Shown here: positions 11,228 to 24,104 of the stretch, one piece after another
Layout: each line of letters begins with the position of its first letter
How positions within the stretch are numbered: the first letter of the stretch is position 1
Assembly: GCF_000759955.1 (NCBI RefSeq)
Contig: NZ_JNAL01000010.1
Coordinates: forward strand, 62,001-126,000
Reading direction: 5' to 3'
Length of the DNA stretch: 64,000 bases
Source of the DNA: Prochlorococcus marinus str. MIT 9201
Lineage (GTDB): Bacteria; Cyanobacteriota; Cyanobacteriia; PCC-6307; Cyanobiaceae
Notes under the pieces: model-generated
The model's database searches: none
Seen by the model: only the letters and a program-made list of their open reading frames with translations
Told to the model about the DNA's origin: nothing
Made by a program: the position numbers and the translations under genes

Positions 11228-11288
11228 ACATTTCGATTAAATAAAAAATTTTGAATGTTTGCATAAAAATTGATAATGTATAAGAACT

Positions 11289-22099: not shown

Positions 22100-23008
22100 A
22101 TGTCCTTTTACTATTCAAGTAAAGAGATGGGTCTAGCCTTAAATGATATTTTAGGGAAAGTATGCTCTTATATTAAAGATTTTTCAAGAGAAGATATTTC
22201 AATAACTTGGATTAATTATAAAAGTGAAAATAAAAGTGTATTTAAAGGTTTTGGGACTGGTATTAATAATACAAAAATGGTTTACCCTGCCAGCATAGTC
22301 AAGTTAGTTTATGGCCTTGCTGCATATTATTGGATTAAAAAAGGAAGTTTATTATTATCAGATGAAGTTATTGATGCTGTAAGGAAAATGTTATCTTTCT
22401 CGAGTAATAATGCGACAAGCTTCTTAATTGATTTGCTTACTGGAACAACAAGTGGACCCTGTATTGAGGGCGAATTATGGGAAAATTGGAAATATCAAAG
22501 AAGCATAATAAACGATTGGCTACATGATTTACATTGGGAGGAGTTGAGTGGTATAAATTGCTGTCAGAAGACCTGGGATGATGGACCATTTGGTCGTGAA
22601 AAAGAATTTTATGGACATAATAATAAGAACAGAAACGCTATGAATTCTGATTCGGCTGCAAGGATTTTGGAGGAAATTATGATTCATATTGATTATCAAA
22701 AAAATGATTTAAATTTACGAAGTTTTTTAAAAAGAAATTTAAATAAAGTTGTTCTTAAAAACGATTCTCTTAATCAAATAAATGGTTTTTTGGGTGAAGG
22801 ATTACCAGAAAACATTAACCTTTGGAGTAAAGCAGGCTTAATGACTGAAGTTAGACATGATTCGGCTTGGTGGACTAATAGTAAATCTCTACAAACTTTA
22901 TTAGTCGTTTTTTGTAATGGAGAAAAATACTCTAAAGATAGTTCTTTCTTACCATTAATAGGAAAAGAAGTATATGAATTTAATAAGAGTTATATTATTG
23001 AGGACTAA
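22100..23008 (+). CDS. Class A beta-lactamase-like serine hydrolase
   Basis: A 302-residue protein of the serine beta-lactamase/transpeptidase fold. The nucleophile motif is YPASIVKL (Ser65, Lys68), and the second motif is probably SNN at 102-104, replacing the usual SDN. The third motif appears as KAG (LWSKAGLMTEVRHDSAWW) where active enzymes have K(S/T)G. No signal peptide is visible at this start. A second ATG at codon 10 is an alternative start and would widen the 3-base gap to the divergent NlpC gene. It may be a peptidase or esterase rather than an antibiotic-resistance enzyme. Confidence 0.82.
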   Translation: MSFYYSSKEMGLALNDILGKVCSYIKDFSREDISITWINYKSENKSVFKGFGTGINNTKMVYPASIVKLVYGLAAYYWIKKGSLLLSDEVIDAVRKMLSFSSNNATSFLIDLLTGTTSGPCIEGELWENWKYQRSIINDWLHDLHWEELSGINCCQKTWDDGPFGREKEFYGHNNKNRNAMNSDSAARILEEIMIHIDYQKNDLNLRSFLKRNLNKVVLKNDSLNQINGFLGEGLPENINLWSKAGLMTEVRHDSAWWTNSKSLQTLLVVFCNGEKYSKDSSFLPLIGKEVYEFNKSYIIED

Positions 23009-23217
23009 AGTAAATCGTCTAGGTAATTAGAATCTAATTTATCAGTATAGGCTTCATAAGGTAACATCATTACCTCTTCAAAATTTAAATCATTCATAAT
23101 CCATTCTCTATATTCTGCTAATAAACTTTTTCTATCTTCATTATCTAATTCATAAATACGCAATGCTGTATCTTTAAAATTTTCTTTAATAAGATTTTCA
23201 AGTTCGTTTTTTTTCAT
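23005..23217 (-). CDS. Small acidic protein, unknown function
   Basis: A 70-residue protein I do not recognise. It has 18 acidic and 9 basic residues, no Cys, no membrane segment and predicted helices throughout. Its ATG lies one base after the stop codon of the recombinase-like gene, so the two are almost certainly co-translated. Its stop overlaps the convergent hydrolase stop by 4 bases. The acidic character beside a DNA-binding protein would suit a partner or antagonist, but this is inference only. Confidence 0.7.
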   Translation of the reverse strand: MKKNELENLIKENFKDTALRIYELDNEDRKSLLAEYREWIMNDLNFEEVMMLPYEAYTDKLDSNYLDDLL

Positions 23218-23218
23218 A

Positions 23219-23842
23219 TTATTTGCCTTCTACATCTAAGATTACTCTTCTAATAGTTGATAAAGCTATTCCTGTTTGTGCTCTTATTGATCGATATGAA
23301 TAGCCTTCGTCACGCAATCTAATTACTAGAGATTCCTTTAAAGGACTTATCTTGGGCCTACCTCCTAAATTATTGCCATTTAATCTTCTTTTTAAAACGT
23401 TTTCTTTTTTTCTTTCTTTAAGGCAATCATTATCCAAATTATTTAATTCACATAAAATATTAAAAACTAAAGATGTTGTATTTGTAGAATATTGATTGGT
23501 AAAAAATCCAGATAAAGTTCTTAACTGGATATCTTGATTTAAAAGTTTATTTATTACTCTCATACATTCATTTTTATTAGAAAATGCGCGATCTAGTTTA
23601 GTTACGACTAATTCATCTCCTTTGGATAAAGCTTTTAAAGCTTTTTGGAATTCCGGCTTTATTTCTTCATCGCAACTTAATAGTTCAGAAAATATTAAAT
23701 TGCAACCTTCATCTTTTAAGAATTGTATTTGTTCTTCTAGGTAAAAAATTTCATTATCAATTGCTCTAGCATATCCTATAGATTTTTTCTTTTTAGTCTT
23801 CTCAGATAAAAGAGATACCTTTCTTTTGAATTGAAAAGTCAA
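23219..23842 (-). CDS. Serine-recombinase-like protein with a degenerate active site
   Basis: A 207-residue protein with resolvase/invertase architecture. A basic N-terminal tail (1-20) leads to a catalytic-type domain (about 21-125) with GYAR and LVVTKLDR. A long helix (125-150, LKERKKENV) follows, then a GGRPK linker and a helix-turn-helix (about 165-200, YSYRSIRAQTGIALSTI). Compared with gamma-delta resolvase, Arg8, Asp67, Arg68 and Glu124 are kept (Arg26, Asp84, Arg85, Glu143). The catalytic Ser10 is Ile28, Arg45 is Lys62 and Arg71 is Ser88, so strand cleavage is unlikely. A regulatory role is inferred. The TTG start at 23842 is tentative. Confidence 0.85.
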   Translation of the reverse strand: MTFQFKRKVSLLSEKTKKKKSIGYARAIDNEIFYLEEQIQFLKDEGCNLIFSELLSCDEEIKPEFQKALKALSKGDELVVTKLDRAFSNKNECMRVINKLLNQDIQLRTLSGFFTNQYSTNTTSLVFNILCELNNLDNDCLKERKKENVLKRRLNGNNLGGRPKISPLKESLVIRLRDEGYSYRSIRAQTGIALSTIRRVILDVEGK

Positions 23843-23858
23843 AGTATTTTAAGATATA

Positions 23859-23973
23859 TTTTTTACTGTATCAAATACTAAGATAAAAAACACTAAATAG
23901 AACAAAAAATACATAATAACACAATCAAATTTTGTTTTTGGATGTTTATCTAATGTTTTTTTACTGTTTCAAA
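23859..23973 (+). repeat. 17-base direct repeat upstream of the recombinase-like gene
   Basis: Two copies of TTTTTTACTGTNTCAAA at 23859-23875 and 23957-23973 differ at one base and lie 98 bases apart, in the spacer between the recombinase-like gene and lipA. The first copy is 17 bases upstream of the recombinase-like start. They could be paired binding sites for that protein. Confidence 0.6.
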
Positions 23974-23989
23974 AATTACGTTCTATAAA

Positions 23990-24015
23990 ATGTTCTATAT
24001 ATGATTATAGAACAT
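23990..24015 (+). promoter_or_regulatory. Perfect 10-base inverted repeat, possible operator
   Basis: ATGTTCTATA (23990-23999) and TATAGAACAT (24006-24015) flank a 6-base centre TATGAT. A further half-like TTCTATA is at 23981. Size and symmetry resemble a subsite bound by resolvase-family dimers, or a repressor operator. It lies 89 bases before lipA and 147 bases from the recombinase-like start. Binding is inferred. Confidence 0.6.
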
Positions 24016-24104
24016 CAAGATTTCTAAGTTTATGATTTAAAAAGAGGTGCACGTACAATATTTCATTTACTGCAGATAAATTTAAATAGTAAAAAATATA
24101 AATT

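Follow-up and report, generated by a model that had tools for sequence, protein, structure and literature searches.

The gene at 23219-23842 of the stretch analysed here, a window of 64,000 nucleotides from Prochlorococcus marinus str. MIT 9201, raises the question of what a resolvase-like protein does once the residues that define the enzyme are gone. A preliminary description of the DNA had recognised a resolvase homologue at this place, and the assignment held. Pfam matched its Resolvase family (PF00239) to residues 22-157 of the 207-residue protein with an E-value of 2.3e-16, and the AlphaFold model (mean pLDDT 82) superposed on the Sin, gamma-delta and Tn3 resolvases, best on Sin (VIA Z 16.2, 121 residues, rmsd 2.0). 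Both the resolvase fold and the catalytic-type domain of a small serine recombinase are present, and so is the C-terminal helix-turn-helix, for which the Pfam match to HTH_7 was below threshold (19.2 against a cut-off of 23.8 bits) yet aligned, and which was also seen in the model and in the conservation. Among the 94 other distinct rows of the genus that reach the start position, 93 have TTG as in the window and one has GTG. The features of the locus are collected in the table.

Table. Features of the resolvase-like locus, in window coordinates.
Feature	Position	Strand	Remarks
70-residue ORF	23005..23217	(-)	acidic; conserved beside the resolvase-like gene in the genus
Resolvase-like protein lacking the catalytic residues	23219..23842	(-)	207 aa, TTG start
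GGRPK arm and helix-turn-helix, residues 160-202	23237..23365	(-)	most conserved part of the protein
Catalytic-type domain, residues 21-145	23408..23782	(-)	from the alignment to Gin and Sin
Replaced catalytic codons	Ile28 23759-23761, Lys62 23657-23659, Ser88 23579-23581	(-)	
Conserved leader between element C and the start codon	23843..23863	(-)	mean pairwise identity 0.89
Element C, TGTTCTA then TGATACAGTA	23864..23904	(-)	
Element B, TAGAACGTAATTTTTGAAACAGTA	23962..23985	(-)	half-site-like boxes
Element A, dyad TGTTCTATAATCATATATAGAACA	23991..24014	(-)	arms covary in the genus

The phmmer alignments to Gin and Sin paired Ile28 with the nucleophilic Ser, Lys62 with Arg45 and Ser88 with Arg71, the same replacements that had been read from the sequence before. 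R26, D84 and R85, corresponding to R8, D67 and R68, were retained; all these labels follow the gamma-delta resolvase numbering. The window protein has neither the Ser nucleophile nor Arg45 nor Arg71 of an active small serine recombinase. The catalytic columns were scored in 100 distinct rows of the genus (97 with a letter at positions 28 and 62), after removal of L069 and the second copy in L067, which are paralogues, and of the broken copy L217, all of them low-scoring. Position 62 was Lys in 97 of 97 rows and never Arg, with 3 gaps. At position 28 we found Thr in 62 rows, Ile in 26, Ser in 5, Ala in 3 and Val in 1, again with 3 gaps, and at position 88 Lys in 72, Ser in 20, Arg, Cys and Tyr in 2 each, and Ala and Leu in 1 each. 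R26 was kept in 97 of 97 rows, and D84 and R85 in all 99 with a letter. None of the distinct genus rows scored combined Ser28, Arg62 and Arg88, and the loss is genus-wide. Since the replacements run through 100 distinct rows, it is explained neither by chance nor by sequencing error. The preliminary description had held that a nucleophilic Ser would speak against a dismantled site. Ser28 does occur in five genus rows, always together with Lys62 and Lys88, which touches this objection without bearing it out; in the alignment it looks like apparent drift at a dead site. As the three defining residues were tested and found replaced, the window protein should not be classed among the serine recombinase enzymes. 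Judged from its sequence, it is a non-catalytic resolvase homologue.

Matches were present in 83 of the 101 genus genomes. In 79 they were of orthologue grade, three genomes had only a distant match (G021, G029, G068), and in G097 the orthologue was split over two frames. Among the genomes at least 90% complete, 27 of 29 carried the orthologue, the distant match of G029 not being counted. The neighbouring gene at 22100-23008 was sought in 8 of the 22 genomes that have no intact orthologue, and it was gone as well in 6 of the 7 lacking any orthologue; these assemblies therefore probably lack the locus. G007, with no orthologue, has part of this neighbour, and G097 has the neighbour. The G097 orthologue (L070:2-621) lies in two overlapping frames at a contig end, either a real break or an assembly error, and the copy of G056 has an internal TGA. 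Over 57 rows the median pairwise dN/dS was 0.244 for residues 2-20, 0.248 for residues 21-145 and 0.065 for residues 150-202; the pairs are not independent, the contrast between the helix-turn-helix and the catalytic domain being large nonetheless. Mean identity in the same rows was 0.80, 0.74 and 0.92, respectively, and 57 of 60 genus rows carried IALSTIRRVI or IALSTIRRII as the recognition helix. By this substitution pattern the gene is under purifying selection, strongest in the helix-turn-helix. That this motif had been retained was an earlier claim, and it proved to be the most constrained part of the protein.

In the genus loci displayed, the gene order was lipA, the resolvase-like gene, the 70-residue ORF, a beta-lactamase-like gene, an NlpC/P60 gene and psaL; loci at contig ends depart from it, as do L066 and L067, which have no lipA next to the gene. 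Neighbours were named from Pfam; the first scored as Radical_SAM, and we take it to be lipA, encoding lipoyl synthase. The closest tRNA genes of the window lie at 11288 and 44086, the nearer one 11.8 kb from the resolvase-like gene. The gene had been described as being without mobile-element context. For the genus, with its fixed synteny, this was found to be so; for the wider family it was not, its members lying at varied loci, some of them beside tRNA genes. The 70-residue ORF begins one base past the stop codon of the resolvase-like gene and has 31 invariant residues among 20 rows. Its model reached a mean pLDDT of 69.7, a search of the PDB gave no match at E 0.001 or better, and weak small relatives were seen in other genomes and elsewhere in the same genomes.

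The spacer upstream of the gene, 23843-24104, had been named as the DNA on which binding might be tested, and the conserved elements A, B and C lie inside it. Over 55 rows (L103 excluded) the mean pairwise identity was 0.71 for A, 0.81 for B and 0.83 for C, compared with 0.44 for the gap that separates B from C and 0.56 for the DNA upstream of A, and 98 of 20000 rolled block placements gave a mean at least as high as the observed one. When the array was compared with the three subsites of a res site, only A was a clear dyad among the three conserved elements. In the window spacer alone the best dyad is marginal, being equalled in 23 of 500 shuffles. The variable positions of the A arms read CT/AG in 17 of the 55 rows, TC/GA in 15, crossed in 3 and other combinations in 20, related rows not being independent. 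The right arm of element C, TGATACAGTA, can also be read as an extended -10, and its conservation may reflect a promoter -10 instead; a promoter scan gave 5 sites against a shuffle mean of 8.5, that is, fewer than the shuffles. A conserved dyad near the gene's own promoter was found, as in an autoregulatory DNA-binding protein. Element A lies about 90 bp from the lipA start, closer to lipA than to the promoter of the resolvase-like gene.

We consider it probable, from these patterns of conservation, that the gene encodes a catalytically dead, autoregulatory DNA-binding protein that binds the upstream boxes and likely represses its own operon, including the acidic 70-residue protein. In the ancestor of the genus, a resolvase-type small serine recombinase would have become fixed at the lipA-psaL locus and would have lost its active site. 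The protein presumably still folds, and a dimer would bind through the kept helix-turn-helix to the upstream array of TGTWYYA-like half-sites, which may be a remnant of the region that controlled the recombinase or in which it recombined. As the boxes overlap or flank the promoter, repression of the protein's own operon, with the conserved acidic 70-residue protein, is the most likely outcome of binding. Dimer binding and autorepression we infer by analogy with resolvase precedent (PMC7157771, PMC4499144), and the role of the 70-residue partner is putative too. A self-repressor with a single target would need a further benefit, for which the 70-residue ORF is the only candidate.

We then turned to relatives outside the genus. 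Searching the family as a whole gave matches in 118 of 300 genomes, and 24 of these belong to the genus of the window. The best matches outside the genus were about 41-45% identical and, in those fetched, lay at loci other than lipA-psaL. In 22 out-of-genus relatives chosen for alignment we found recurrent boxes of the TGTTCCA type, a promoter-like motif and, immediately ahead of the start codon, TGGAAC boxes; in 17 of the 22 the extended -10-like motif begins exactly 22 bp after the start of the TGTTCCA-type box. TGTTCCA/TGGAACA half-sites flank the promoter-like motif before many intact relatives in other picocyanobacterial genera, and 19 of the 46 intact or near-intact rows carry the recognition helix LALSTIRRII, the rest varying. 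As boxes, promoter-like motif and helix recur there, element C of the genus probably descends from the control region of these relatives. In shuffle tests of 33 out-of-genus rows the box pair was significant (p<0.05) in 11 of 21 intact or near-intact and 4 of 12 degenerate copies; box and protein thus do not invariably travel together. Upstream of the degenerate copies L109, L128, L137 and L138 we saw by eye motifs containing CTATAG (ACTATAG, TAACTATAG) and no TGTTCCA boxes; these motifs possibly represent a changed operator or promoter. Phage records gave 73 matches, the 15 listed being about 28-30% identical, plasmid records at least 5000, the 15 listed being 34-37% identical, and a scan of viral contigs a single match at 23%. 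No specific phage or plasmid source for the gene was found in these scans.

By the alignment of the catalytic residues, their loss recurs in other picocyanobacterial genera, mostly at a tRNA-Cys/purM locus, the purM label being given to loci whose stretch contained three or more of eleven marker genes. Among the 15 full-length members at this locus, 6 have all six catalytic residues and 9 have four or fewer, compared with 35 members with six, 12 with five and 3 with four or fewer elsewhere (Fisher p 2.5e-5, the rows not being independent; the elsewhere group includes seven distant outgroup rows, and two fragments of L103 were not counted). tRNA-Cys was present in 13 of the 15 purM loci. Family members, intact or degenerate, were seen amid variable small ORFs at the tRNA-Cys/purM locus of other genera (L089, L098, L103, L109, L118, L120, L121, L128, L130, L134, L135, L137, L139). 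One purM-locus neighbour (c2) had no match in Pfam, and an initial label of lipid-A synthase for it was dropped for that reason. In the 34 loci with an intact or near-intact copy, a tRNA gene lay within 2 kb in 9 and none was in the examined stretch in 14; with only 9 of 34 loci having a tRNA gene so near, we do not call the recombinase family as a whole tRNA-island-borne. In the 12 degenerate rows the helix-turn-helix is better preserved than the catalytic domain, the best identity to intact relatives being 0.64-0.98 in the former and 0.32-0.92 in the latter, and all nine degenerate rows scanned by Pfam were still above the Resolvase cut-off. The family tree, from which near-duplicates, both pieces of L070 and two fragments of L103 were excluded, contains long branches and unresolved forks and fixes no count of independent losses.

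These losses suggest a broader picture, which we put forward as a speculation of low probability: a mobile serine recombinase of picocyanobacteria would repeatedly have lost its active site and kept its DNA-binding domain, giving rise to self-regulating pseudo-recombinases that would act as immunity factors in trans through boxes shared with intact relatives. For the gene in the window, the corresponding explanation is that the dead protein blocks intact recombinases that arrive from outside, either by sitting on their sites or by joining mixed complexes there; an inactive S10A resolvase that still synapses sites (PMC4499144) would speak for it. G050 carries the dead gene together with two near-intact copies, L071 and L072, which have five of the six catalytic residues and boxes of the type TGTTTCA/TGAAACA (p 0.023 and 0.007), and element A of its dead gene (L073) has TGTTTCA too. 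However, few genomes of the genus carry such near-intact copies, and their recognition helix, LGLATIRRII, departs in a few residues from the IALSTIRRVI of the dead protein, so that we regard a protective function as unlikely.

Genome-wide scans bear on whether the protein acts mainly on other genes, lipA or a small regulon, with autoregulation secondary. The A-type dyad was found at 6 sites in the window genome against 3 in the control, and the C-type pattern at 7 against 5; in ten genomes there were 56 A-type dyads against 32, a modest excess with 4-8 per genome, and several of the matches sit in coding DNA. These counts gave no sign of a regulon, the scans being insensitive: in most of the ten genomes even element A escapes the strict pattern, which makes them a weak test for the absence of a regulon. 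In 6 of the ten genomes the dyad TGTATTATCTTATATATAGAACA is found at one and the same place, between an argG-like gene and a small ORF that it precedes (L250, L252-L256; one base different in L255). A TGTTCTA/TGAAACA dyad lies at L149:1501-1524, in the divergent start region of two genes of the window genome, presumably FtsH-like and NdhO-like. The position of element A near the lipA start, the recurrent dyad on the argG side and the excess over ten genomes would suit a regulator of other genes. Against this, L066 and L067 keep a B-like box without an adjoining lipA, the excess in the window genome itself is small, several matches are coding, and the argG-side site sits in DNA that is conserved anyway. 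A main role at other genes therefore appears doubtful to us.

The preliminary description had suggested reuse as a transcription regulator or a nucleoid protein. A DNA-binding regulator, most simply of its own gene, is the part of this suggestion that the conserved boxes favour. A nucleoid or architectural protein would be compatible with a DNA-binding domain retained without chemistry and is unsupported by the 4-8 dyads per genome, an argument that is weak in so far as the strict pattern misses element A in most scanned genomes; we hold this role to be very improbable. Very improbable, too, is that recombination persists by an altered chemistry, with Thr or Ser at position 28 and Lys in place of Arg. 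The Thr of 62 rows and the Ser of 5, out of 97, the invariant Lys62, the retained R8, D67 and R68 and the conserved res-like array would allow it, but Ile, Ala or Val stands at position 28 in 30 of 97 rows, the window included, and Arg71 is replaced in 98 of 100. A decaying pseudogene, to which the internal TGA in G056 and the split copy in G097 (L070) might point, is hardly credible, since a dN/dS well under 1 in every domain, with its large contrast at the helix-turn-helix, and an orthologue in 27 of the 29 genomes at least 90% complete argue against decay.

A literature search found no description of this gene or of a dead serine recombinase in Prochlorococcus. Serine resolvases are known both to repress and to recombine, and in the protein described here only the DNA-binding role seems to survive. 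The favoured reading, a dead autoregulatory DNA-binding protein, would make it a natural case of a recombinase turned regulator, with the box array kept, parallel losses in sister genera and operators that are directly testable, and it could show how streamlined genomes tame mobile recombinases.

With Tn3 and gamma-delta resolvase, Sin and Gin the window protein shares the fold, the domain order, R8, D67 and R68, the helix-turn-helix with its GGRP arm and a half-site array upstream. Unlike them, it lacks Ser10, Arg45 and Arg71 and is encoded by a fixed chromosomal gene with no transposon or invertible segment. In PMC7157771, the res sites analysed include promoters and TnpR is named as a repressor acting there, which resembles the putative sites of a resolvase-fold protein overlapping its own promoter in the window; TnpR also recombines, whereas the window protein seems to have lost that activity and to be left with binding at most. 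That binding can outlast the chemistry is in line with the S10A resolvase, inactive yet still forming synaptic complexes (PMC4499144). Like the host-adopted DNA-binding proteins of mobile elements in the review PMC8987985, the window protein would be a mobile-element protein fixed as a likely host regulator. In the excerpted text of that review (PMC8987985) the adopted regulators are Xre, RHH or antitoxin proteins, and serine recombinases appear only as active enzymes, whereas the protein of the lipA-psaL locus is a serine recombinase homologue.
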